15,903 nt of DNA from Thermoguttaceae bacterium. GTDB lineage: Bacteria; Planctomycetota; Planctomycetia; Pirellulales; Thermoguttaceae. The translations under genes and the position numbers were made by a program. The notes beneath the pieces are model-generated. The model saw only the letters and a list, made by a program, of their open reading frames with translations, ran no database searches and was not told the DNA's origin. The stretch covers positions 1 through 15,903 of the forward strand of contig JAFTCU010000015.1 in NCBI GenBank assembly GCA_017454585.1, written 5' to 3'. Shown piece after piece: positions 2,115 through 15,871 of this stretch (positions are counted from its first letter, which is position 1; the number at the start of each line of letters is the position of its first letter).

Positions 2115-3188
2115 TCACGTTCCTGCGCCGAGTTTCTTCAGGGTCAGGCGCGCTTCGTTCGCGATCACCGGGTCCGTGTCGGGGTCATTCAGGATCTTCA
2201 CCAGAAGGTCCGTCGCGGCCGCGCGCTGCGTCTGGGGGAAATGAAGCGTTCCACGAATTGCGGCAATACGGCAGGGCAAAGAAGCCGCGGAGTCCTCGAC
2301 GGTCGCCAAGGCAAGCGTTTGCGTCTCGGAGTTTTCCGAATCGATCGCGGCCAAAACAGAAAGAAGCCGCGAATTCGTCGCAATATTTTCCACTTTTTGA
2401 ACTGCCGGAAGGGCCGCGGGGCCAAGTTTTACCAGGATCTCGCACGCACTCAGCGCCGAATCCGCGTCCGGCGTTTTTTGAACCAGTTCGGTCAATTTTT
2501 CGGCCAGTGCCGTAGAATCCTCCCCAAACGTTTCCGGGCCGGAATCTTCCAAAATCATCAGAATCGCGGCAAGAGTCTGGTAGATTTCCGTGTTCCGAAC
2601 ATAGTTGAACTCTTTGTCCAGCGCCAGCGTTTGATCGATCCAATCCAGAACAGGCTTTTGCTTCCCGACGAGCCAGAGGGCAGCGGCGCAGTTAGGCCTC
2701 ACCGGGCGTTCGGATTCTGTCGTGGATTTCAGAATCGTCTCGAGTTTTTCCACGGTTTCCGCAGCTTCGGAAAGTTCTTTCGGGAATTTTCTCAACGCAA
2801 GGATAGCGGTGCGCCGGATGAGAACGTACTCCGAATCTACCTCGTCCAGAATGGCCGGGACAGCTTCTTTGTCACCAATTAAAGCCAGTGTGAGGAGGAT
2901 GCACGCCCGCACGTCATCATCTTCCCCGGCATCGATTTGCAGGCGTTTCAGCAAAACCGGCACGGCCGATTGAGCTTTTTCAGCGTATTTTCCCAATGCG
3001 TAGGCGGCGTACCACTGCTCGCGTATCGACGGTACTTTTTCTTTGGTTTTCTCCGTTGCCGAGTCAATGATTTTTGTCCAATGTTCGACCGGTTTGGACT
3101 GCCAAATCGCCTGGTCCTGTTCCGCGGTAAATCCGCACACGCAGAATAGAAGTGTAAAAATGATAAACAAAACGTTTCTGCAAAACAT
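2115..3188 (-). CDS. exported HEAT-repeat protein
   Basis: The 357-residue product starts with a signal peptide (basic RN at 4-5, hydrophobic core about 6-19, likely cleavage after FTA at 22), so it should act outside the cytoplasm. The mature part is almost all helical pairs of HEAT type: REQWYAAYALGKYAEKAQSAVP (56-77), VRACILLTLALIGDKEAVPAIL (93-114), VLIRRTAILALRKFP (122-136) and a run from about 163 to the end, with the typical Ala/Leu spacing and Pro between helices. HEAT solenoids generally serve as protein-binding scaffolds; the partner is not shown here. It is the last gene of the kinase operon, 29 bp after the paralog of the kinase sensor domain, so a role in the same envelope system is likely but inferred. 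A GGAG lies about 11 bases before the ATG. The two Cys near the end of the signal peptide do not form a proper lipobox. Confidence 0.85.
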   Translation of the reverse strand: MFCRNVLFIIFTLLFCVCGFTAEQDQAIWQSKPVEHWTKIIDSATEKTKEKVPSIREQWYAAYALGKYAEKAQSAVPVLLKRLQIDAGEDDDVRACILLTLALIGDKEAVPAILDEVDSEYVLIRRTAILALRKFPKELSEAAETVEKLETILKSTTESERPVRPNCAAALWLVGKQKPVLDWIDQTLALDKEFNYVRNTEIYQTLAAILMILEDSGPETFGEDSTALAEKLTELVQKTPDADSALSACEILVKLGPAALPAVQKVENIATNSRLLSVLAAIDSENSETQTLALATVEDSAASLPCRIAAIRGTLHFPQTQRAAATDLLVKILNDPDTDPVIANEARLTLKKLGAGT

Positions 3189-3217: not shown

Positions 3218-4414
3218 TTAAAATTTAAGCTCGTTACCTTCCTTTGGTTTCACGGGCGCCGCGACCTCTTCGGATTGTACCGGTTTTTTCTTTTCCAGGC
3301 GGGCGGCCTTTTGTTCTTCCGTCAGGGGCTGGGTTTCCAGAACATTGACCTGGGTTTCCCCATAATCAATGTAGATCCGCAGTTTCGCCTCGGATTTTGC
3401 GAGCGCTTTGAGCTGTTGAAGGCCCCAATTTTGCGTCTGCAGCGCCGAAACCTGATTTGTATCTTTCGCGTTGCGCTTCCAGGCTTTCTGTTTTTTGAGC
3501 TTGTTGTTGATGCTATTGATTTTATCCCTGTTTTTACTCATCACGATATCGATCTGCGGGTCCTGTGCCGCCCGAAACAACATGCCAAACATTTTGGCGT
3601 CAACCTTCGATGGTTCGATCGAAACCGCAATGACCGCCGCGAACGTTGTCCGTATCTCAAGAGAAAAAGCGGTCTTCGTGTTCCCGTTGGAATCTTTGAA
3701 CCTGAACAGTATCTTCATCGGGTCTTTCGACGAGATCTCCGAAACTTTTTTCTTCGGCGGCAGGATTATGTTGGCCTCGCCCGGCTTGTGCGAGCCTAAA
3801 GACTGCAACTCAAAAAAGAGCGTTTCCAGATCCGGGAGCGGGTAGTCCAAAATCTCCGTTTTGAACGTGCCCACACCGGTTTTCGGGTTCAACATAATAT
3901 TTTCGATTTTCACCGGTTCACGAAGCGCCAGGTAGTGTCTGTCCGAGCCGGAGGTGAACTTCAAAACGCAGTTCGCGATCGGGAGAAGGAGATTTTGCGG
4001 GACTTTGGTACGCCACTTGAAGGTGAGTTTTTTCCCGTCGTGGGTCAGCGTTACACAAGTGGCCTCACGGCCTTCCAGATTATACTTGATCTTCCAGCAG
4101 GCGTTTCCTTCCTTTTCCAAAGTATAACCGGTTATCCTGGCTGCGCCGCCGTCATCAGAGTCCTGATCTTTCTTTTTGGCCCCGCCCTTTTGGGGGATTG
4201 CGGTTTCCCCGCCGAGCAACGTGATCTCCAAAGGTTTTCCTCCGAGATCCATCGGCATGAAATCGACTTCACTCCCACTGGTGGAATCAGGAAGGCGAAT
4301 AGCTTTCGGAACTCCATCAAAGACACTCGCGGCCATTGCCGGGGCCTGAACCCCAAATGCGGCAAGCCCCCAAGTGAATACCGAGAGGAAAAACCAGGGT
4401 TTTAACTGTTTCAT
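3218..4414 (-). CDS. secreted paralog of the neighbouring kinase's extracytoplasmic domain
   Basis: The family is not one I recognise. The 398-residue product has a clear signal peptide (KQLK, hydrophobic 7-21, cleavage likely after AMA near residue 28) and no other membrane segment. From about residue 60 to its end it is colinear with residues 870-1209 of the kinase encoded just upstream. Shared blocks are LLGG (66-69 vs 875-878), W(K/D)IKY (107 vs 912), FKW (132 vs 937), ANC (147 vs 954), LALREP (162 vs 969), PMKI.F.FKDSNGN (232 vs 1038), KQ.AWKR.A.DTN (308 vs 1119), a shared Gln/Lys-rich helical stretch before the last block, RIY..YGE.QV (346 vs 1157) and a final (L/M)KF. Sequence between blocks has diverged. 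The start is 29 bp downstream of the kinase stop. I infer a soluble partner, decoy or co-receptor for the kinase; a structural envelope role is the main alternative. Confidence 0.85.
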   Translation of the reverse strand: MKQLKPWFFLSVFTWGLAAFGVQAPAMAASVFDGVPKAIRLPDSTSGSEVDFMPMDLGGKPLEITLLGGETAIPQKGGAKKKDQDSDDGGAARITGYTLEKEGNACWKIKYNLEGREATCVTLTHDGKKLTFKWRTKVPQNLLLPIANCVLKFTSGSDRHYLALREPVKIENIMLNPKTGVGTFKTEILDYPLPDLETLFFELQSLGSHKPGEANIILPPKKKVSEISSKDPMKILFRFKDSNGNTKTAFSLEIRTTFAAVIAVSIEPSKVDAKMFGMLFRAAQDPQIDIVMSKNRDKINSINNKLKKQKAWKRNAKDTNQVSALQTQNWGLQQLKALAKSEAKLRIYIDYGETQVNVLETQPLTEEQKAARLEKKKPVQSEEVAAPVKPKEGNELKF

Positions 4415-4443
4415 GGTGAAAAACTCACACTCCTTGCGAAACG

Positions 4444-7400
4444 CTAAAACTTCATACCGCCCAGATCATTTTCGTCTTCTTCCGGCTCGTTACCGCCTTT
4501 CTTCTTTGAAGCCTTTCCTTTTTTGTTGGGCTTCAACTCGTCAGGGTTCATTTTGCGGCTGACGACCAAATCGACCTGATCTTCACCGTATTGGGCGTAG
4601 ATACGGTATTCAAAATCCAGATTGACCATTTTCTTTGCGAGTCCGGCCAGCCAGATTTGCCCTTGAAGCTGAGCAATTTTATTTGTATCCGCGGCATCCC
4701 GCTTCCACGCTTCCTGTTTCTCCAGCTTCATTTCTAAATTCTTGATTTCGGTCTGCCATTTATTCACTTGAATGTCACTCTGAGGATCCTGGAGCTGGGC
4801 TAACTGAGCCATAAACTGAGGCCCCACACCTTTCGTCATTCCTTGCCTTCCAACGGTCAAAGTACCCGTCAGGTTGGAACCGATCATAGGAACGAAATCG
4901 AAGAAGAACGCCTCGTTCATATTCCCGTTGGAATCTTTGAAGTTAAACGAGATTTTCATCGGTTTTTTCGGATTCAGGTCGGAAACCTTTGTCGGTTCCG
5001 GGAATTGGATGTCCGGGCAGTCATCTGGAAAATCGCCAATTCGCACGAACTCAATGTAAACCACATCAGGGGAGGGGAATGGCGGATCAATTTTTCCACC
5101 TTTTAAGTTCCCAATCCCTTTTTTGTCAAGCACAATCGTAGGCAGCTCGATCGGCTCACGCAGGGCCAGGACGTGGGCTTTTTCGCCAACCTCCAGCAGC
5201 AACGCGCAGTTCGCAAGCATCGGGAGGTCTTTGGGCGCGATTTTGGCATCCGGCTGCCACTTGAAATTCAGCACGCCGTCTTCCAAAGTCAGAATCGCGG
5301 CAAGGGATTCTTCCTCCTTGTTCTTGTACTTAATATCCCATGCTTTATTTTCGCCTTCCGAGTCGCCTTCCTCAAGATTGAAGAATTTGGTCTGTTCAGG
5401 CTGCTTCTTCCCGATTGCTTTCACCGGGAATACGAGGTCACCGCCCAGAAGCGAGACCATCACGTCGGAACCCGCGTCAGGGAGGTCCACCAGTTTGGTC
5501 GTTTCCCTGGAAGAAGTTTCGGGGATCGGAGCGATTTCAGGAACGTCCTTGAAAGGTTCAGCGGAGGCCTTTTTCGGTTCGGGCTTCGCTTCCTCCTTGG
5601 GCGGTTCTTCTTTCTTCTGATCTTCGGCCGGAGCGGCTTCTTCCTTCTTTTCCTCTTCCGGCGGAGCGGCTTCTTCCTTTTTCTCTTCAACCGCCGGTGC
5701 AGGTTCTTCCTTGTTCTCCTCAGCTGCCGGAGCAGACTCCGGGTTATTCTCGCCCTCTACAGGAGCGGCGTTTTCGCCTTCGGGCTTCTGTTCACCGTCA
5801 GCCGGAGCGGCGTTTTCGCCTTCGGGCTTCTGTTCACCGTCAGCCGGAGCGGCGTTTTCACCTTCGGGTTTCTGTTCACCGTCAGCCGGAGTGGCGTTTT
5901 CACCTTCGGGTTTCTGTTCACCGTCAGCCGGAGCGGCATTTTCACCTTCGGGTTTCTGTTCACCGTCAGCCGGAGCGGCATTTTCACCTTCGGGCTTCTG
6001 CTCGCCATCAGCCGGAGCGGCGGCATCTCCCTCGGCCTTTTGTTCACCTTCAGCGGTTTTTTCCGTGTTGCCGTCTTCGGAAACTTTATTTTCTGCAGTT
6101 TCGTCTTCGATGACTTCCTCAACAACCGGCTCATTTTCATTCTGGCCGGGTTTCTTTTCATCATTGCCGCCCAAGAGACAGAGGACGATCACCAGGATGA
6201 GGATCAAAAGGAGGACACCACCCGTGATTCCACCATAGATGATACGCTGCTTCGGTGTGAGTTTCGCGAAGAAATCTTTGATTTTCTGGAGGAAACCACC
6301 ATCGCCCATCTTCGCTTTCTTTCCGGCCGCAGCCGTTTTTTTCGCAGAAGTATGGGAGGGATTCGCGTTTGCCGGAGTTTCTTCCCGTTTTCCGCTTCCC
6401 CAAGCCGCAGTTTTTCCTTTGTGGAGGCGTGACATAACGGCGGAAATTTCCTCTTCGCGCTTTGGCGAATCTTTACCGGGCTTTTTCATCGGCGGAATTG
6501 AGGTTTTTTGAGGAGCCGGGGATTTTTTTACCACGACAAAGCTTTCCTCAGATTCGTCGTCATCATCGTCGTCCAGAAGAACCGCCTTTACCAGCTTCGG
6601 ATTCTTCTCCGATTGAGCGTTTGGATTGTTTTCTTTCTTTTCCATATTTTTTATCTCAAGAGCAGGTTCCCTGGCAGCCGATTCAGCCGCGTCTTTTCCC
6701 GTTGAGACGGTTGTATCTTCCAGGGCATTTTCCTGTTTCTGTTTTTCCTTGGCCTTACCGGAAGGCGCATCTGAAAACGGAAACGCAAAACCGGAATCTT
6801 TTTTCTCAGCGGAGGAATCTTTCTGGCCATTTTCCAGGCTAGAGAAATCGATATCCAAATCAAGTTTCCCGGATTTACCGGCCTTTTCCTTTGAATCTTT
6901 GGAATCTTTTTCTTCCTTCGTTTCTTTTTTCGTAAACTTACTGAAAAAGCCCGATTTTTTCGTTTTGCTTCCCAGATTGAGAGAGCTGGAACGGCTGGCC
7001 TTGGAATCACCCGCCAAATTCGTGAAATCAAGTGAAACAGAGCTTTCTCCCGAGTGCCCGTCATCCGCCAGCCATTCACCCAGGTCTTCCTCAATTTCTG
7101 CACAAGACGCATATCGGTCCTCGGGACTTTTGGCCATCATTTTCAGGCAAATGTCACAGAGTTTCGAAGATATCCGGTCGTTAAACTCCTGAGGATTTTT
7201 GGGCTCTTCCGTTTGATGTTTGATGATTCGTTCCGGGATCGTATCGCCCGGGAATGGAATTGAACCGGTAAGAAGGAAGTACATCACGCACCCAAGCGAG
7301 TAAATATCTGACTTGGGAGAAGAATTGGCGGAATCCTCGGCGACTTCCGGCGCCATATAATCTACAGTTCCAATGACGTTTTTGTTCAGATCCTCCGCCC

Positions 7401-8073
7401 CGTTTTCCGATCTGGTATGGAAGCGGGCCAACCCCATGTCAAGAATTTTGATTTGGTCGGATTCCAGGTTCAGCAACAGGTTGGCAGGTTTAATATCACA
7501 GTGGATCATTCCGCGCTCATGGGCGTGATTCAGCGCACTGGCGGCCTGATACATATATACCGCCACACGATCCTGATCCATGGGACCTTCTTTCATGACG
7601 ATTTTTTCGAGGTCCTGCCCGTCCACATACTCCATAACGATGTAGTAGCGATCCCCCTCTTTATCAACACTATAGGCGTGTACAATATTGGGATGATTCA
7701 GGGCAGCGATCGCCCGGGCTTCATTCAGGAAACGTTTCTGCGCTTCAGGGTCCTTTACTAGTTCCTTGGCAATGATTTTCAACGCTACGGGGCGGTTCAT
7801 CGTGATGTGTTCCGCCAGGAAAACACGCCCCATCCCGCCAGCGCCCAACAAATCAACCAGTTTGTATTTCCCAAGGAAGAAGGACGTATTTCCCGAAAGA
7901 AGTTGACCAGCCTGCCAGCGGGTCACGATCTTCTTTTTCAGCAAAGCCTTGAGAAATTCCTGACTGTCGGGAAATTCCTCGCTAAGTTCTTTGGCGCTTT
8001 CAAAGTCCTTTAACTGCAATAGCCGGCTGCGTTCGATGATTTTAAGTACAGAAGCGGAATCTTTAATGGCCAT
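4444..8073 (-). CDS. transmembrane Ser/Thr protein kinase with large extracytoplasmic domain
   Basis: This is a Hanks-type kinase of planctomycete style, 1209 residues. Residues 1-65 are a helical N-terminal region; 68-335 are the kinase core, with G-loop GAGGMG (77-82), ATP lysine K99 in VALK, E118 in the C-helix, catalytic loop HCDIKPANLL (191-200), DMG (212-214) in place of DFG, GTVDY (235-239) and APE (241-243). A long charged Ser/Lys/Glu linker follows, with an acidic run at 501-510. One membrane helix spans about 612-635. Next is a Glu/Pro/Ala-rich stalk (640-840) with six 14-residue repeats, then a globular domain (855-1209) duplicated as the next gene. The predicted topology is kinase inside, stalk and domain outside. 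HCD replaces the usual HRD, making it a non-RD kinase, which in other systems often means activity without activation-loop phosphorylation. No strong Shine-Dalgarno precedes the ATG at 8073. It is the first gene of a three-gene operon. The ligand and substrates are unknown. Confidence 0.95.
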   Translation of the reverse strand: MAIKDSASVLKIIERSRLLQLKDFESAKELSEEFPDSQEFLKALLKKKIVTRWQAGQLLSGNTSFFLGKYKLVDLLGAGGMGRVFLAEHITMNRPVALKIIAKELVKDPEAQKRFLNEARAIAALNHPNIVHAYSVDKEGDRYYIVMEYVDGQDLEKIVMKEGPMDQDRVAVYMYQAASALNHAHERGMIHCDIKPANLLLNLESDQIKILDMGLARFHTRSENGAEDLNKNVIGTVDYMAPEVAEDSANSSPKSDIYSLGCVMYFLLTGSIPFPGDTIPERIIKHQTEEPKNPQEFNDRISSKLCDICLKMMAKSPEDRYASCAEIEEDLGEWLADDGHSGESSVSLDFTNLAGDSKASRSSSLNLGSKTKKSGFFSKFTKKETKEEKDSKDSKEKAGKSGKLDLDIDFSSLENGQKDSSAEKKDSGFAFPFSDAPSGKAKEKQKQENALEDTTVSTGKDAAESAAREPALEIKNMEKKENNPNAQSEKNPKLVKAVLLDDDDDDESEESFVVVKKSPAPQKTSIPPMKKPGKDSPKREEEISAVMSRLHKGKTAAWGSGKREETPANANPSHTSAKKTAAAGKKAKMGDGGFLQKIKDFFAKLTPKQRIIYGGITGGVLLLILILVIVLCLLGGNDEKKPGQNENEPVVEEVIEDETAENKVSEDGNTEKTAEGEQKAEGDAAAPADGEQKPEGENAAPADGEQKPEGENAAPADGEQKPEGENATPADGEQKPEGENAAPADGEQKPEGENAAPADGEQKPEGENAAPVEGENNPESAPAAEENKEEPAPAVEEKKEEAAPPEEEKKEEAAPAEDQKKEEPPKEEAKPEPKKASAEPFKDVPEIAPIPETSSRETTKLVDLPDAGSDVMVSLLGGDLVFPVKAIGKKQPEQTKFFNLEEGDSEGENKAWDIKYKNKEEESLAAILTLEDGVLNFKWQPDAKIAPKDLPMLANCALLLEVGEKAHVLALREPIELPTIVLDKKGIGNLKGGKIDPPFPSPDVVYIEFVRIGDFPDDCPDIQFPEPTKVSDLNPKKPMKISFNFKDSNGNMNEAFFFDFVPMIGSNLTGTLTVGRQGMTKGVGPQFMAQLAQLQDPQSDIQVNKWQTEIKNLEMKLEKQEAWKRDAADTNKIAQLQGQIWLAGLAKKMVNLDFEYRIYAQYGEDQVDLVVSRKMNPDELKPNKKGKASKKKGGNEPEEDENDLGGMKF
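5770..6021 (-). repeat. six tandem 42-bp repeats inside the kinase stalk
   Basis: Exactly six in-frame 42-bp units encode the 14-residue motif AAPADGEQKPEGEN (kinase residues 685-768); unit four has Thr for the second Ala. Degenerate partial units flank both ends (EGEQKAEGD before, AAPVEGENNPES after). The units differ at a few synonymous positions (for example GCG/GCA and GGC/GGT), so the array is not a brand-new expansion. The repeat is extended, acidic and proline-rich, fitting a flexible spacer between the membrane helix and the outer domain. Its copy number may vary between strains. Confidence 0.95.
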
Positions 8074-8574: not shown

Positions 8575-9891
8575 ATGATCAACCAAAACGCCCCCAGATG
8601 GCCAGGGTTAGGCTTCCTGCTTTTCAGTTGTTTTCTGACTCTTTTATCTTCTTGCGCACCGAAAGAGCCAGTTCCTTCAGAAGCGGATTTGAAAAAAAAT
8701 GAGGAAATCCGTGTTCCTCTTGTTCAACTTTGTGAAACTCAGCTTGAGAAAGAGCTTCGGCCTCAAACATTTTCTGCGATTGCCAAAGAAGGAAAAACGA
8801 TTCAGCTTTCTTTTCGGGTCCCTGGACCTATGGTTTCTCTGACGGCCAAGATCGGCGAAATGGTTGAGAAAGGTACAGAACTGGCCCGGCTGGACCAGCG
8901 TGACTTCCTGAACACTTTGGAAACCGTGAAAGCGGGGATCGCCGAGGTGCAAGCCGCACTGGACGCCAAAACCGCGAATAAAGACCGTTCCATTACCATG
9001 CTTCAAAAGCAGGTGGACGCGGCCGTCACTCAATTTGAAACTGCGGACAAAAATCTGAAAAAGTTCACCGAACTGGAAAAAGAAGGAGCCGTTCCGGAAA
9101 TCAAGCTGGATGAGATCAAGCTCAAGCATGAGCAGGCTCTTGCCGCCAAGATCGCTGCCGAAAAGCAGCTCGAAAACGGCATTAAGGGCCTTGATGAGGA
9201 AATTAAAGGTTACGAGGCCAAGAAAAAAGGTCTTCTCGCTCAGCAAACCCAGGCGGAAAACGCATTGCAGGATACGATTCTGGTCGCGCCCTGCCGTGGG
9301 TACGTCACACAAAAATATTCCGAAAATAACGAGATCGTCGCGCCGGGAATCCCCGTTCTCGCGTTTACTGATGCCTCGTCGATCCTCGTACAAACGACGA
9401 TTTCTGAGTCTTTTCTCGTTCGTCAGAATGAATTCACCTCTTTCGAGTGTGTTTTTGAGGCCTACCCGGACTTGAAATTTAACGCGGAGCTCGATTCCCT
9501 GGGAAAAGCTCTTCAGGCCGGTGGTCATGGTTATCCTCTGGAAGTTCTGATCAAAAATGAGGACCCGGAACGCAAAATTTACCCGGGAATGGCGGCCAGC
9601 CTGACGATCAACTTCAAGCCAAAGGAAGGCGAGTGCCTCGTCCCGCTTATGTCGATCGTTGGTGACTACGCGCCTCCCGCGCCTGATTCCAAACCGGAAG
9701 ACTATACGGGAAAAAGTTCTGAAACGATCGTCTGGACCCTTTCGCCGGAAAACAAAGTTGTGAAGAAAAACGTTCAAATTGTTCGTTTGACGGCTGATGG
9801 AGTGGTCGTGACCGGCCTGAACCCTGGTGAACAAATCGTCGGTCCCGGAGCGCGTTTTCTGCGTGAAGGGCAAAAAGTTCGGACCCGGTAG
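8575..9891 (+). CDS. RND efflux periplasmic adaptor (membrane fusion protein), lipoprotein
   Basis: This subunit bridges an inner-membrane RND pump to an outer-membrane channel. The 438-residue product has a lipoprotein signal peptide with lipobox LSSC (Cys27), the following Ala being compatible with release from the inner membrane. The order is that of the HlyD/AcrA family: first half of the lipoyl-like domain (about 75-112, including VPGPMVSLTAKIGEMVEKG), a long alpha-helical hairpin (about 113-232, rich in Glu/Lys/Ala/Gln), then the second half (236-266) with VAPCRGYV and VAPGIPVL, and beta-barrel and membrane-proximal domains to the end (EQIVGPGARFLREGQKV). Its TAG stop overlaps the Shine-Dalgarno of the permease gene 11 bases on, so the two are translationally linked. 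The pump substrate cannot be told from sequence. Only a weak AAGG precedes the ATG. Confidence 0.93.
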   Translation: MINQNAPRWPGLGFLLFSCFLTLLSSCAPKEPVPSEADLKKNEEIRVPLVQLCETQLEKELRPQTFSAIAKEGKTIQLSFRVPGPMVSLTAKIGEMVEKGTELARLDQRDFLNTLETVKAGIAEVQAALDAKTANKDRSITMLQKQVDAAVTQFETADKNLKKFTELEKEGAVPEIKLDEIKLKHEQALAAKIAAEKQLENGIKGLDEEIKGYEAKKKGLLAQQTQAENALQDTILVAPCRGYVTQKYSENNEIVAPGIPVLAFTDASSILVQTTISESFLVRQNEFTSFECVFEAYPDLKFNAELDSLGKALQAGGHGYPLEVLIKNEDPERKIYPGMAASLTINFKPKEGECLVPLMSIVGDYAPPAPDSKPEDYTGKSSETIVWTLSPENKVVKKNVQIVRLTADGVVVTGLNPGEQIVGPGARFLREGQKVRTR

Positions 9892-9895
9892 GAGG
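9891..9895 (+). promoter_or_regulatory. strong Shine-Dalgarno of the RND permease, overlapping the adaptor stop
   Basis: GGAGG lies seven bases before the ATG at 9903. Its first G is the last base of the adaptor's TAG stop. This is the strongest ribosome-binding site in the window and suggests coupled translation of adaptor and pump. Confidence 0.8.
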
Positions 9896-9902
9896 CAAAA
9901 AA

Positions 9903-12900
9903 ATGAACAGACTGCTTCCAACTTACGCGGTTCACCACCGGTTTGTCGTTGGTTTTTTTGTGGCGCTGCTGGTCCTTGGCGGGATTTACACGTATTTCAC
10001 GATTGGCCGGCTGGAAGATCCGGAATTTACATTGAAAACGGGTATCGTCGTAACGCTTTACCCCGGGGCGAGTGCCGCGGAAGTTGAAGAAAACGTTACA
10101 GACCTGGTTGAACGGACCTGCCGCCGCCTGAAAAACATCGATCACATTCGGTCCTACTCGGAGCCGGGGCTTTCTTTCATGTACGTTGATATGAAACAGA
10201 GCCTTCCAAGCAAAGACCTCCCGGCCGTCTGGACCGATTTGCGAAACAAACTCTCGGAGATCCGCACGGAACTTCCGCCCGAGTGCCTTCCGCCGATCGT
10301 ACAGGACGATTTTGGCCAGGTGTACGGTATCGTGCTGGCTCTGACCAGCGAGGGGTTCACACCTGAGGAACAGCTCGACCGTGCCAAAGAGCTTCAGCGC
10401 GAATTCAGCCTCTTGAGTGAAGTAGGTCGCGTGGAACTTTGGGGGAAACCGGACGAGCAGATCGAAATTGAGATTTCTCAGGCCAAAATCTCGCAGTTGT
10501 CTCTCCCTCCATCGTTCATTCTGGCGGCCCTCTCGACGCAAAATCTCACGATGAGCGCCGGAGCGATGGAATACTCAGGCGAAAATATCCGCCTTACCCC
10601 TTCCGGCAAATTCCAGAGCATTGAGGAGATTGGTAACCTCGTGATCGTCAGTTCGACCGCGCAGGCTCTGCTCAATCAGGCTCAGGCGGTTTCGGAACGG
10701 ATCGTTCCCGGGAGCATCGTAAACTCTGTCCTGCATCAGGAGGCGAGCAGGATCACCGGAAAAGAGCAGGCAGGGGCGGAACAGCAGATCCGTCTGCGCG
10801 ACATTGCGACGATCCGCCGGGTGAAGAAGGACCCACCGTCCAAAGTTTGCCGCTACGATGGAAAAGACTGCATCGCGATCGCGATCTCTCCCCGCCCGAA
10901 CGGAAACGTCGTGCGCATGGGCGAGGAGGTTCACCAAAAAGCCAACGAACTGATGGCGAAGTTCCCTGCCGGTTGCGAACTCAAAGAAGTGACTTTCCAG
11001 CCCGACGACGTAAATGAGGCCGTCCATTTGTTTGTCAAAAACCTTCGCGAGGCCGTCATCATCGTGACGATCGTCGTGATGATCGCGATGGGTTGGCGGT
11101 CTGGCCTTTTGATCACCAGTTCACTTTTGATCGTGATTTTCGCAACGATGAGCCTTCTGCAGCCAATGGGGATCGTTCTGCAGCGCATTTCGCTCGGGGC
11201 GTTCATCATTGCTCTGGGAATTCTGGTCGATGACGCGGTGGTGGTCGGTGACCTGATCATCGTGCGAATGCAGAGGGGGATCGAGCGTACCGAGGCGTGC
11301 ATCGAGGGTGCGAGCCGGGCGGCGTGGCAGCTGCTCGGTGCGACGATCGTTGGAGCCCTCGCCTTTTTGCCAATTTACCTCACACCGACCAACGTGGGCG
11401 AATATTGTTCCTCGCTTTTCATCGTGGTTGCCGTTTCGCTTGGGATCAGCTGGCTCGTCGCCATGTTCCAGACACCGGTCGTTTATTACCTCTGTGTTCA
11501 CCCGAAGGTTGAGGAAAGCGGCAAAGACCCGCACGGCGGCCCGGTTTATCGTATGTACCGTCACGCTCTGGACTGGACGCTGCGTCACCGGCTCATCGCG
11601 CTCCTTATGATCGCCGCGGCCTGTGCCATCGCGACGGTAGAATTCCTTGAAGTGGACCAGAACTTCTTCCCACGTGCCCGCCGCACGCAGTTCTGGGTCG
11701 ATTTCTGGTTCCCGAGCGGAACCTCGACCAATACGGTCTCGGAAGAGATGAAACGCGCCGAGGCGTACCTGCAGGAGATCCAGCAAAAGGACAGTCGAAT
11801 CACGTCGTTTACCTCCTTCATCGGGTCAGGCCCTCCGCGGTTTTATTTGCCGTATCAGCCCGAGTACCCGCACTCCAATTACGGCCACATCGTCGTAAAC
11901 GTAAAATCGGTTGATGACGTGGACGTGCTTCTGGAGCCGGTAAAGCTCTGGATGAAGAACCATTTCCCGCAGGCGCAGGTTCGTGTACAGCGTTTCGCGA
12001 TGGGGATGCCGACTCCGCACGAGCTGGAAGCCCGGTTCAGCGGCCCGGACCCGCGCGTTTTGCAGCAGTTAGCCTTTCAGACGGAACAAATCCTTCTGGA
12101 TTCGCCCCATGCGCAGGACGTTCAGAACAACTGGCTCCAGAAGACTCTCACCATTTCGCCGAAGTACTCGCAAAACAAAGGCCAGCGCGCGGGTCTGTCG
12201 CGGACGAATGTGATCCTTTCCCTCGCGGGAGAGACCAAAGGTATCCCGGTCGGGATGTACTCGGAAAACGAAAACAATATTCCGATCCTGGTCCGCGGAA
12301 CTCCCAGCGAACGCAATGACGTCGCCAATACTGAAAACATTCAAATCTGGGGCGTTATACCGGGAAGTACTCCGCTGGGTGAACTCACCTCGGAAATGGA
12401 TTACGTTTGGGAAGACGCCATGATCTACCGCTACGATTCCAGGCCGGCGGTCGTCGTCGGCGCGGACGCATACGGCATTTCGTGGATGAACCTCCTGAAC
12501 GAGGTCCGCCCCAAAATCGAGGCTATCGAACTGCCCGATGGTTACTCCTTCGAGTGGGGCGGTCAGTACTACGAATCCCAGAAATCCACGAAAGACGTTC
12601 TGGCCTGGCTCCCGATCGCGTGCATCATCATGCTCGGGATCGTGGTTTTACTCTTCAATGACCTGCGTCAGCCGCTGATCATCGTCCTGACGGTCCCGCT
12701 CGCCATGATCGGGATCACGACCGGCCTTTTGGTCTTCCACAAAGCGTTCGGTTTCATGGCGCTGCTCGGCGTTATGTCGCTGCTGGGAATGATCATCCGA
12801 AACGGCGTGGTCTTGATGGACCAGATCGACGAGGAACTCACCAAAGGAGGCCCTCGTTTCCAGGCGGTGCTGGACGCTTCTGTGGAACGAATGCGCCCGG

Positions 12901-13112
12901 TGGTCGTCGCGGCCACGACCGTCGTGGTCGGCATGATCCCGCTTCTGCGTGACCCCATGTTCGACGCCATGGCGGTCGCCATGATGAGTGGTCTGATTTT
13001 AGCGACTGGCCTGACGCTCTTCATCGTGCCGGTGCTTTACACTTTGTTTTTCAATATTCACCCGGAATCAAAGAAACACCCGGCAGCAAAACCAAATGAC
13101 GAAGTAAAATAA
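9903..13112 (+). CDS. RND-family efflux permease (AcrB/HAE1-like)
   Basis: This is a proton-driven inner-membrane pump. The 1069-residue product has the RND plan: TM1 (about 12-34), first periplasmic porter loop, a block of helices from about 382 to 532, TM7 (about 562-582), second porter loop, and TM8-12 (about 898-1050). TM4 has the paired aspartates D443 and D444 in GILVDDAVVVGD, equivalent to D407/D408 of AcrB. TM10 has GMIIRNGVVLMDQ, with Arg966 where AcrB has Lys940, a substitution seen in some subfamilies. Around 252-296 there is a Gln/Ala/Ser-rich segment between GNLVI and IRLRDIATI that appears to be an insertion of roughly 45 residues relative to the usual porter domain. It forms an operon with the adaptor upstream and the secreted protein 26 bp downstream. 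No outer-membrane channel gene is nearby. The substrate is unknown. Confidence 0.95.
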   Translation: MNRLLPTYAVHHRFVVGFFVALLVLGGIYTYFTIGRLEDPEFTLKTGIVVTLYPGASAAEVEENVTDLVERTCRRLKNIDHIRSYSEPGLSFMYVDMKQSLPSKDLPAVWTDLRNKLSEIRTELPPECLPPIVQDDFGQVYGIVLALTSEGFTPEEQLDRAKELQREFSLLSEVGRVELWGKPDEQIEIEISQAKISQLSLPPSFILAALSTQNLTMSAGAMEYSGENIRLTPSGKFQSIEEIGNLVIVSSTAQALLNQAQAVSERIVPGSIVNSVLHQEASRITGKEQAGAEQQIRLRDIATIRRVKKDPPSKVCRYDGKDCIAIAISPRPNGNVVRMGEEVHQKANELMAKFPAGCELKEVTFQPDDVNEAVHLFVKNLREAVIIVTIVVMIAMGWRSGLLITSSLLIVIFATMSLLQPMGIVLQRISLGAFIIALGILVDDAVVVGDLIIVRMQRGIERTEACIEGASRAAWQLLGATIVGALAFLPIYLTPTNVGEYCSSLFIVVAVSLGISWLVAMFQTPVVYYLCVHPKVEESGKDPHGGPVYRMYRHALDWTLRHRLIALLMIAAACAIATVEFLEVDQNFFPRARRTQFWVDFWFPSGTSTNTVSEEMKRAEAYLQEIQQKDSRITSFTSFIGSGPPRFYLPYQPEYPHSNYGHIVVNVKSVDDVDVLLEPVKLWMKNHFPQAQVRVQRFAMGMPTPHELEARFSGPDPRVLQQLAFQTEQILLDSPHAQDVQNNWLQKTLTISPKYSQNKGQRAGLSRTNVILSLAGETKGIPVGMYSENENNIPILVRGTPSERNDVANTENIQIWGVIPGSTPLGELTSEMDYVWEDAMIYRYDSRPAVVVGADAYGISWMNLLNEVRPKIEAIELPDGYSFEWGGQYYESQKSTKDVLAWLPIACIIMLGIVVLLFNDLRQPLIIVLTVPLAMIGITTGLLVFHKAFGFMALLGVMSLLGMIIRNGVVLMDQIDEELTKGGPRFQAVLDASVERMRPVVVAATTVVVGMIPLLRDPMFDAMAVAMMSGLILATGLTLFIVPVLYTLFFNIHPESKKHPAAKPNDEVK

Positions 13113-13138
13113 GTGAAACATTCCAGGAAAGAATTCCC

Positions 13139-14818
13139 ATGAGACCTCATCCTTTCCTTTTTATCCTGTTTTGGGCTTTCCCGATCACGGGCTTTACCCA
13201 GTTTCCAAACGTCGAGTTTTTCCCCACGGAACTCCCGAATCCGGTTTCCGTCAGCGACCCGCCCGAGAACGTGGAATTTCTCGGAGGCGGCGCTTTCAAA
13301 GAAGGGGTCGCCGCAGACGAAGCCTCGGATGAAACCCAGGAAACTGAAGATGAAGATTACGTAGAACTGAATTCGATCCAGGATTTCTGGAACCTCTACG
13401 AAGTCAGCGATTCTTTCAGGGAGCGTTACAGCGACGGAACACCCTGGTCTCCGGACGAAGAAAATCTTTTCTTCTTCTATCACCTTCAGGAGCATATCAC
13501 GCAGGAACGGCTTGAGGAGTGGGCCAAGCCAGAAAACGCACTCGACGACCTGGACACGATTCAGAATCCTGAACTGAACGCGAGACGGTTCGACGCGTTC
13601 TGGATCAACGGCCGGCTCTTGAGCGTTGAAAAGACGGACCTGGAAGAAGACGTCGCGTTCCGGTACAGAATCGCCTCGTTTTACACGTGCAAGCTGGAAC
13701 TCAACGACGGCAGGCACGTGACACTTTTCTGTCAGCAGATTCCACGGGCACTGCAAAAACCGGGGGCACTGGCGTCCAAACCCAAAGTCGGTCTGATCGC
13801 GCTTTTCCTGAAAAAAGGCGAAGCGACCGAAAACGTTTTGGTCCCTGACCCGGACAAACCCGACGAAAAGAAGGAACTCGTGTCCATGTTCATGATTGGC
13901 CGACGGCTGGCCTGGTACCCGGATACGCTGCTCGGAAATGCGGGCTTTGATGAAGGGCTTTTCGACGATTTGGACCGGGAAGAGCTTGCCGAGGACGCAA
14001 AACGCAGCGCCATGGTCGATACACGCCTCTCGTCTCGGAATCGGGAATGTTTCTACCAGATGATGAACACCGTTTTTCACATGCCTCCGGACTCGCTCGC
14101 CAAAATCGTCGCGGACGTCGAAGCCAACGCGCCTGATGAGCATTTTGAAAAAATCAACTATCCCGGCCATGAAAAAATGCTGAAGGAGGGCAAAAGGCCG
14201 AAGCGTTACAGCTCCGTCATTCCTCTGTTCAACCAGCCGGCCAAAGAACGAGGTCACTTTTTCTTCCTGAAGGGGATCGCGCGCCGCATCGTGCCGATTC
14301 GCGTGGACGATTCCGACGTGAATAATCGGTTCGGGATCAATCATTACTACGAGATTTTCCTCTTCCCGGACGAAACACCTGATTCTCCCATGGTGGTTCT
14401 GGTCCCGGAACTCCCTCCGGGAGTCACGCCCGGAAGCGATATGGGGTACTATGTCGAGCTGGAAGTTCCCGCGTTCTTTTTCAATACGTGGTCGTACGAG
14501 AAAGGAAAAAGTCAGGACGGGAAGCAGTTACGCCGTCTTTCGCCGCTTCTGATCGGTGGGATCCCCGCGCAGACCGTCAGCGTCGTGTACACGCCCGATT
14601 TGACGTGGTTCCTCGTGATCGGAGGCACGGTTTTTTCCGCCCTGTTCATCTGCTCGATCATCCTGTTCTTCATCACCAGCCGGGAAAACCAGATCGCGCA
14701 GCAAAACCGGATGAAAATGTACTCGCTCCCGGAAGGGACCCAGTTCCAGGACGAAGTCGATGACGCGCCGAAAGAAAATGAAATGGGCTTTGAGGAGTGG
14801 GTTCAGAAAAACCAGTAA
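13139..14818 (+). CDS. secreted, C-terminally membrane-anchored protein of unknown function
   Basis: I do not recognise a family. The 559-residue product has a signal peptide (residues 1-20, hydrophobic 5-18), an acidic low-complexity segment (about 55-80, rich in Glu/Asp), a long extracytoplasmic region (about 80-485), one strong membrane helix (about 489-513) and a 46-residue cytoplasmic tail starting SRENQIAQQNR. The soluble part has many aromatic residues and strand-like segments such as FDAFWINGRLLSVEK and VVLVPELPPGVTPG, suggesting a beta-rich fold. AGGAAAG precedes the ATG, 26 bp after the permease stop, so it belongs to the efflux operon. A role as a pump accessory or in the same envelope process is inferred from position only. 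The TAA stop falls within the dispersed repeat at 14815-14853. Confidence 0.85.
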   Translation: MRPHPFLFILFWAFPITGFTQFPNVEFFPTELPNPVSVSDPPENVEFLGGGAFKEGVAADEASDETQETEDEDYVELNSIQDFWNLYEVSDSFRERYSDGTPWSPDEENLFFFYHLQEHITQERLEEWAKPENALDDLDTIQNPELNARRFDAFWINGRLLSVEKTDLEEDVAFRYRIASFYTCKLELNDGRHVTLFCQQIPRALQKPGALASKPKVGLIALFLKKGEATENVLVPDPDKPDEKKELVSMFMIGRRLAWYPDTLLGNAGFDEGLFDDLDREELAEDAKRSAMVDTRLSSRNRECFYQMMNTVFHMPPDSLAKIVADVEANAPDEHFEKINYPGHEKMLKEGKRPKRYSSVIPLFNQPAKERGHFFFLKGIARRIVPIRVDDSDVNNRFGINHYYEIFLFPDETPDSPMVVLVPELPPGVTPGSDMGYYVELEVPAFFFNTWSYEKGKSQDGKQLRRLSPLLIGGIPAQTVSVVYTPDLTWFLVIGGTVFSALFICSIILFFITSRENQIAQQNRMKMYSLPEGTQFQDEVDDAPKENEMGFEEWVQKNQ

Positions 14819-14853
14819 GATCCGGAGGGCCGGCGTCCTCACCGGTCAAGTTA
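14815..14853 (+). repeat. dispersed palindromic repeat, copy 2 (contains the upstream gene's stop codon)
   Basis: The unit TAAGATCCGG...CAAGTTA starts at the TAA stop of the preceding gene and matches 2035-2071 (opposite strand), differing by one inserted base and about two substitutions. Its internal stem is kept on minus-strand RNA by a U-G wobble (CCGGUG / CGCCGG around AGGA). Both copies sit immediately after a gene end. Confidence 0.8.
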
Positions 14854-14862
14854 ATTAAAAAA

Positions 14863-14931
14863 CGTCCATTCCGCCGCAAAACCGGGGGCTTAAAGTCCCT
14901 GAATCGTGCAGCGGGGTGGACGTGAATTTTT
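14863..14931. terminator. structured, probably bidirectional terminator between convergent genes
   Basis: A 12-base stem CGTCCATTCCGC (14863-14874) pairs with GCGGGGTGGACG (14911-14922), continuous on plus-strand RNA with two G-U pairs. Inside it lies a second hairpin GGGGCT / AGTCCC with a TAA loop (14885-14899). On the plus strand TTTTT follows at 14927-14931. On the minus strand TTTTTT abuts the stem (complement of 14857-14862), although that strand has two A-C mismatches in the stem. It lies between the stops at 14818 and 14945, so it can serve both transcripts. Its large loop is unusual for a simple terminator. Confidence 0.6.
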
Positions 14932-14944
14932 GGCTGGTCCCGTT

Positions 14945-15871
14945 TCAACTCTGCGCCAAATATTCCTCCCACGGATTCACGTCAGCAGCATTCTTGGGAA
15001 GCCCCAGGGCCGCCAGACAAAGATCCGCGACGTCCTCAGTCACCGAAACTCGGGTGGAGGGAATCTCCCGCTTCTCGAAAAACGCCTTGACGCTCGCCAA
15101 ATATTCGTCGTACAAACGCTGGTAAACGGCCAGATCGTGCTCGGTCAGCGTGATGATCTGGCGGTAATCCCGGCTCGGGTCATAAATGTCCACGTCGCCG
15201 ACCAGCCCCTCCGCCCGTTCCGTCGGGTCCTCGAGATGAACCGCCCGGACGTCGTACCCGGCCTGCAGGAGCAGCTCGAACCCCGCCTTGAAATCTTTTT
15301 CAAAGGAATCGGACTCACCGAAAAAATCGCTCAGCACGAAAACCTCCCCCGCAGGGCGCTTCTGATCCACAAAAGACTGCGCAAGAAACGCGAAGTCCGT
15401 AATATTCGGCTCCTGCGAGAGTTCCATTTCTTCCAGAAAACGAAGAAACCGCCCCGTTTTCTGCTCGTGGCTCAGGACCGGATAAAGCGCGAAATCCGGC
15501 ATGAACGTCCCGAATTCCAGCAGCGCGCCGGTCGCGAGCAGCCCGTACGCCAGCACGGCCGCGGCCTGTTTCGCCGCCAGGAGTTTGGAGGGCCGAAAGC
15601 ACATTCCGTACGAAGTGTCGAGGAGCAAAGACGCGTTTCTCTGGGCGTTCCCACCGTAGGTGCGGACCCGAAGTTCATCGTGCCGGGCGCAAACGCCCCA
15701 ATCGATCCGCCACGGCTCGTCGCCGGTCGTGTAGTCGCGCAGACCGGTGATCTCGGTCCCTCCCGCGGGCAGTTTGGCCGGGTCAAACGCGAGCAGACCC
15801 CCGCCGAGCCGCTGGGCGATACGTACGCAGGATTTCAGTTGAGTTTCAAGTTCAGGAGTGAAAATGGTCAT
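14945..15871 (-). CDS. DUF58 (von Willebrand A-like) domain protein
   Basis: DUF58 proteins are usually encoded with a MoxR-type AAA+ ATPase and membrane VWA proteins; their role is thought to be in assembly or maturation of envelope or metal-containing complexes. The 308-residue product has the family core: GGTEITGLRDYTTGDEPWRIDW (37-58), CARHDELRVR (61-70), then the degenerate metal-site strand LLLDTSYGM (82-90). The classical D-x-S-x-S becomes D85-T-S87-Y-G89, so the last Ser is missing. No signal peptide or membrane helix is seen. The start at 15871 is the only good one and has no Shine-Dalgarno. Any MoxR partner would lie upstream, beyond the window end. It converges on the efflux operon. 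Confidence 0.9.
   Translation of the reverse strand: MTIFTPELETQLKSCVRIAQRLGGGLLAFDPAKLPAGGTEITGLRDYTTGDEPWRIDWGVCARHDELRVRTYGGNAQRNASLLLDTSYGMCFRPSKLLAAKQAAAVLAYGLLATGALLEFGTFMPDFALYPVLSHEQKTGRFLRFLEEMELSQEPNITDFAFLAQSFVDQKRPAGEVFVLSDFFGESDSFEKDFKAGFELLLQAGYDVRAVHLEDPTERAEGLVGDVDIYDPSRDYRQIITLTEHDLAVYQRLYDEYLASVKAFFEKREIPSTRVSVTEDVADLCLAALGLPKNAADVNPWEEYLAQS

Follow-up and report, generated by a model that had tools for sequence, protein, structure and literature searches.

A 15,903-nucleotide stretch of contig JAFTCU010000015.1 from a Thermoguttaceae bacterium, here called the window, carries three closely spaced genes on the minus strand, which encode a 1209-residue membrane Ser/Thr kinase (positions 4444 to 8073), a 398-residue exported protein (3218 to 4414) and an exported HEAT-repeat protein. 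The second protein is a free copy of the kinase's own extracytoplasmic domain (ectodomain), and the two copies have diverged in charge. We propose that the free copy may, once exported, bind the kinase ectodomain and alter the behavior of the kinase, a reading to which we assign a probability of about 0.45. The observations that support it are the paralogy of the two copies, the nested position of the free copies in the ectodomain tree, a retained gene neighborhood, low dN/dS (the ratio of nonsynonymous to synonymous substitution rates), a shared predicted order of structural elements, and opposite charges.

Paralogy of the kinase ectodomain and the exported protein

The kinase ectodomain comprises residues 841-1209 (positions 4447 to 5553, minus strand, as are all features of the unit given below). 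When compared by BLASTP with the exported protein, it aligns at 169 bits, with 116 of 362 positions identical (32%) and 184 positive; the alignment is colinear and pairs kinase residues 841-1192 with residues 32-377 of the exported protein. The Smith-Waterman score of the pair is 455, against a maximum of 61 over 500 shuffles. These values bear out the original prediction, made from the sequence alone, that the two are colinear paralogs. Its count of at least eight common motif blocks also holds, as twelve blocks can be named (LLGG, IKY, FKW, ANC, ALREP, PMKI, FKDSNGN, DPQ, AWKR, DTN, RIY and YGE, among others) together with the terminal LKF/MKF of both proteins. The predicted extent of the domain in the kinase, about residues 870-1209, is correct at its end, and its start lies nearer residue 841 than 870. 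In the free copy, a signal-peptide-like stretch was recognized by eye at about residues 1-29, followed by the ectodomain at about residues 32-363. Across 25 aligned rows, invariant residues are common to both forms, for example LGG, N-C, L-R and F-D-N.

A 20-base run identical in the two coding regions, which the original prediction had pointed out, lies at positions 3681 to 3700 inside the free copy and 4922 to 4941 inside the kinase ectodomain, within a 78-nucleotide block of 73% identity. Redrawing the codons with the amino acids unchanged produced a run of at least 20 in 3 of 2000 draws, and four related operons do not retain the identity. We therefore reject a conserved DNA element and take the run to be local similarity, perhaps left by a small gene conversion.

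AlphaFold2 models of the kinase ectodomain (predicted local distance difference test, pLDDT, 84.6; predicted template modeling score, pTM, 0.80) and of the free copy (pLDDT 83.2, pTM 0.77) are both confident and agree in the order of their secondary-structure elements, which begins with a beta-sandwich, continues with another part rich in strands and a helical insertion, and closes with two strands. The two models were built from the same 25 sequences in a different order, so they are not independent, and they were compared by order of elements rather than by superposition. Within these terms, they agree with the expectation that one fold occurs twice, once on the kinase and once free. The domain has no name in the libraries searched: 20 of 20 ectodomain members matched 0 Pfam families at E <= 0.01, the free copy matched 0 NCBIfam families at E <= 1, and a Foldseek search of the PDB gave no match at E <= 0.001. 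The only Pfam match of the free copy fell below cut-off and was to its signal-peptide region. A literature search of titles and abstract openings, which left subscription papers mostly beyond reach, found no description of the ectodomain or of this arrangement.

Both proteins end in a variable, charged tail of low model confidence followed by a conserved hydrophobic-x-Phe, which in the window reads GGMKF in the kinase (positions 4447 to 4461) and LKF in the free copy (3221 to 3229). The KF end is present in 18 of 20 free-copy rows (the exceptions being P0015 and P0020); in kinase copies of the same clade the last two residues are KF or VF, in G051-G053 they are VF, TF and QF, and the Phe end is absent in G050 and in most distant ectodomains. 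As a general sorting tag, GG-x-K-F was rejected, since it gave 8 hits in 8 genomes (5 in ectodomain genes, 3 elsewhere) against 4 for a reversed control. The tail is a trait of the ectodomain family, not a genome-wide tag. The terminal Phe could, we presume, be read by a periplasmic PDZ-type protein.

Origin of the free copy and divergence in charge

The relatives on which the following comparisons draw have source names of Thermoguttaceae or Planctomycetia bacteria; NCBI taxonomy places Thermoguttaceae within Pirellulales. A protein search with the free copy returned 16 proteins, one of them identical, and a search with the kinase ectodomain returned five kinases, of which one is identical in the region compared. 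With the free copy of G003 as query, six rows were obtained, namely itself, a new relative (P0031), three known ones and one whose contig and protein length match the cut kinase end of G053. A contig scan yielded four loci (goat twice, water deer and one Planctomycetia bacterium). In all of them the kinase ectodomain comes first, then the free copy and then the HEAT gene; L001 and L004 show the kinase domain itself, and in L002 and L003 the contig begins inside the kinase gene. Each of these four free-copy genomes has two ectodomain matches, and in 4 of 4, as in the window, the free copy adjoins a kinase ectodomain.

In a tree of 37 ectodomains, in which G050 and the outgroup rows have long branches, all 20 free copies group in one clade (support 100/100) nested within the kinase ectodomains and sister (100/98) to eight kinase ectodomains of the same clade, with a stem branch of 0.47 for the free copies and 0.22 on the kinase side. 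Because the free copies are one supported clade among kinase ectodomains, they most likely had a single origin, in one gut Thermoguttaceae clade. The earlier-branching ectodomains, from G051, G052/G053 and G050, are each the single match in their genome; the kinase domain is visible in G050 and G051, the contig begins inside the gene in G052 and G053, and a HEAT gene directly follows the kinase gene in all four. The simplest reading of the sequences is that a kinase-HEAT unit is older and that the free copy was inserted into it once. Kinase-fused and stand-alone forms were thus seen side by side in one clade only, with one apparent origin, as a late addition to the kinase-HEAT unit. Between the window and G001, two methods place dN/dS at about 0.23 for the free copy, 0.13-0.21 for the ectodomain, 0.16-0.19 for the HEAT gene and 0.03-0.04 for the kinase part.

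Net charge, computed with one core definition, separates the two forms. It is +3 to +17 in the free copies (17 of 17) and -13 to -17 in seven of the clade's eight kinase ectodomains. The single-copy relatives G050-G053 have -1 to -6 and seven more distant ectodomains -2 to +9. In a separate comparison, 57 other kinase-fused ectodomains (at least 280 profile positions covered, degenerate kinases included) have a mean of +3.8 (standard deviation 6.3, lowest -8). The two forms differ most in the first beta-sandwich, where the kinase copies have -3 to -9 (5/5) and the free copies +3 to +10 (20/20). Ectodomain positions 69, 77 and 311 are acidic in 5/5, 4/5 and 5/5 kinase copies and basic in at least 16/20, 20/20 and 18/20 free copies; position 121 is Lys in 5/5 kinase copies and Asp or Glu in 20/20 free copies. 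Judged by eye, G050-G053 have the kinase-like state at position 69 in 4/4, at 77 in 2/4 (where the alignment is uncertain), at 311 in 3/4 and at 121 in 4/4. Because these relatives mostly keep the kinase-like state, most of the charge swaps seem to have arisen in the free copy. Within the clade, the HEAT protein is acidic too (-15 to -17 in 5/5, including one that a contig end truncates).

We envisage a receptor kinase, made up of a cytoplasmic kinase, one membrane helix, a variable stalk and a C-terminal ectodomain, that would have an exported HEAT-repeat protein as its partner. The region encoding the ectodomain was duplicated between the kinase and HEAT genes in one gut Thermoguttaceae clade and became a separate exported protein. 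Outside the membrane, the basic free copy would dock on the acidic ectodomain of the kinase, and the resulting hetero-pair would replace or compete with self-association of the kinase. Pairing could then govern how the kinase clusters, or how well it reaches a ligand or the acidic HEAT protein, with either sign, activation or inhibition. According to the passages available from two studies, duplicates of self-associating proteins often form heteromers (PMC6711710, PMC7480870); the origin by duplication that such a comparison calls for is found here in the colinear identity and the nested tree position.

Several points weigh against a paired free copy. One kinase ectodomain of the clade, P0029, has a net charge of 0, and the HEAT protein of G051 is at -18 without any free copy in that genome. 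The charge split represents a few evolutionary events rather than independent tests and may have another cause, and ancestral self-association of the kinase is an assumption. A wider proposal, which we hold more tentatively, joins a kinase controlled by two paralogous ectodomains that pair under electrostatic steering, maybe bridging to the exported HEAT protein, with an undescribed Pirellulales ectodomain family found on kinases, on kinase-like proteins without catalytic motifs and on other membrane proteins.

The strong change in charge and the longer stem branch of the free copies would also suit a protein that has taken on another target (the cell envelope, a polysaccharide, or a molecule from host or diet) and sits in the operon for co-expression only. 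A free copy in G326 does lie about 3.7 Mb away from the kinase copy of the same genome. Within the clade, however, the free copy stays beside a kinase ectodomain in all four genomes sampled, and several positions have swapped charge while the shared core has not been lost; we regard such a new role as less likely than the paired reading but a serious alternative. The free copy could instead be a soluble decoy or ligand buffer, which would take up the ligand of the kinase ectodomain, make no contact with the kinase itself and in this way set its sensitivity. The shared domain with its invariant residues, the probable signal peptide and the likely single transcript all fit a decoy, but because the net charges are opposite, an identical ligand for both forms is less likely unless the binding site is charge-independent. 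We take the decoy, too, to be a serious alternative, slightly less likely than a new role. A polymer or surface layer of free copies monitored by the kinase, another of the original suggestions, is highly improbable, as we found nothing in its favor: like net charge on every free copy disfavors self-assembly, and no repeats, anchor or sorting signal were seen in the 398 residues. As for the heterotypic receptor that had been suggested alongside it, the opposite charge shift fits a hetero-pair, but the domain is widespread and the pairing was seen in one clade only.

Spread of the ectodomain in the order

A first profile of the ectodomain matched 20 of 119 genomes of the family, and a broader one matched 103 of 396 genomes at order level (E <= 0.001) and 36 of 397 at class level (E <= 1e-5). 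We fetched 100 loci around profile matches (60 + 40), a subset of all order-level matches, and found in them 106 ectodomain frames. The ectodomain is a widespread C-terminal domain of the order's membrane proteins, carried mostly by kinase-like proteins (62 of the 106 frames also match the kinase profile). The module that had been singled out as undescribed does contain an unnamed domain, but that domain is not special to the pair. Nor did it prove to be a common secreted domain with no tendency to neighbor kinases, or one whose two forms lack a shared fold, since a kinase-like protein is its most frequent fusion partner and its free copy adjoins a kinase ectodomain wherever the clade was sampled.

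By a simple pattern, 32 of the 62 kinase-matching frames are full-length with HxD and DxG, 12 are full-length without HxD and 18 are partial, including L080 and L082, which are cut at a contig start. No HxD..KxxN is recognizable in 12 of the 44 full-length kinase parts (L081, L084, L085, L087, L089, L091, L092, L095, L110, L116, L145 and L146), and, with L080 and L082 excluded, 16 further frames match the kinase profile only in part. Because of these missing motifs and partial matches, many of the kinase-like relatives may be catalytically dead, and pseudokinase receptors may be common in the order. The window kinase, unlike the relatives without HxD, keeps its catalytic motifs.

Among the 44 frames that do not match the kinase profile, four are the free copies of G001-G004. 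Several are the ends of kinases truncated by a contig end (L003, L030, L031 and L047) or a stretch of N (L029); L101 and L114, both situated at contig ends, were left unclassified, and at L038 kinase and ectodomain occupy two frames. Elsewhere the ectodomain is joined to two sulfatase-modifying-factor domains (L033:9453-13097), to a GAP1-N2/M protein (L156:3076-5727) and, with a weak match under cut-off, to a zinc-ribbon-like part (L126:4766-6337). The N-terminal parts of L119, L142, L118 and L137 matched no named family when scanned; other N-terminal parts were scanned for some frames only. L118:5590-6795 is the free copy in G326 that lies far from the kinase copy, L095. It has a signal-peptide-like start and looks independent, in another lineage; no kinase match was present near it in the fetched 12 kb.

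The gene unit, its neighbors and known systems

The kinase gene was defined by its open reading frame and translation. Its cytoplasmic kinase domain (residues 70-322, positions 7108 to 7866) matches PF00069 with 204 bits against a cut-off of 31.7 (E 3.4e-60) and has the Lys, HxD and DxG motifs of a Hanks-type Ser/Thr kinase, as VALK, HCDIKPAN and LDMG. A single membrane helix was read from the sequence at about residues 611-636 (positions 6166 to 6243), and the G001 orthologue has its hydropathy peak at residue 611. A repeat search located a Pro/Glu-rich stalk with 42-nucleotide (14-residue) repeats (positions 5696 to 6096). Repeat number varies among near-identical relatives: P0025 is one unit shorter and otherwise the same in the printed alignment.

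The third gene of the unit (positions 2115 to 3188), to which the original prediction had not extended, encodes 357 residues and matches PF13646 (E 3.7e-12). Gaps of 29 nucleotides each separate kinase from free copy and free copy from HEAT gene; this spacing on one strand makes co-transcription of the three genes likely. Neither gap contains a minus-strand terminator-like site, a result that carries little weight because the scan found 14 sites against 12.0 in shuffles. A HEAT gene of the same kind lies directly downstream of the ectodomain gene in 14 of the 100 loci, with a 4-nucleotide overlap in five; the profile was built from 12 sequences (the window's and those of 11 of these 14 loci), and divergent members were possibly missed. 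Divergent genes for HlyD and an RND-type transporter, an unnamed 559-residue protein and a DUF58 gene occupy positions 8575 to 15871, and the same block adjoins the unit in G001. We rejected the HlyD/RND genes as part of the unit: they are present at the G001 locus and not in the stretches fetched for G002, G004 and G050-G053, which are partial contigs. At the other end of the window, positions 399 to 1649 encode a QueA-type queuosine biosynthesis protein (PF02547, E 2.4e-120).

In animals, soluble ectodomain forms tune receptor kinases; these are mostly splice or shed forms, whereas the window's free copy is a separate, diverged gene product of opposite charge. The PASTA-type receptor kinases (PknB/Stk1) resemble the window kinase in having a kinase domain, one membrane helix and an ectodomain. 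The window kinase, however, matches no PASTA model in the Pfam scan, and NF033483 reaches 311 of the 450 bits required, below cut-off and over residues 66-397 only; with no PASTA repeats, we rejected its assignment to that type. In Corynebacterium glutamicum, as the passages available describe it, the extracytoplasmic protein GlnH, encoded with membrane signaling parts (GlnX), is proposed to control the Ser/Thr kinase PknG (PMC9769921). There the exported protein is a solute-binding protein; in the window it is a paralog of the kinase's own ectodomain. The membrane Hanks-type kinases of Planctomycetota, in the accessible passages of a survey in which most planctomycete kinases are membrane proteins, share with the window kinase a cytoplasmic kinase, a single helix and a domain on the far side (PMC11032199). 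Those passages describe no free ectodomain copy, and the accessory domains counted there were Pfam domains. Because no Pfam model matches the ectodomain, a census of this kind would overlook it.

Planctomycete membrane kinases are numerous, and few of their inputs are known. For some of them, these analyses provide an ectodomain family that the libraries searched do not name, one placed duplication that gave rise to a free partner, and a handful of charged positions open to testing. Should the two proteins bind, they would clearly exemplify, in bacteria, the control of a receptor kinase through a copy of its own ectodomain.
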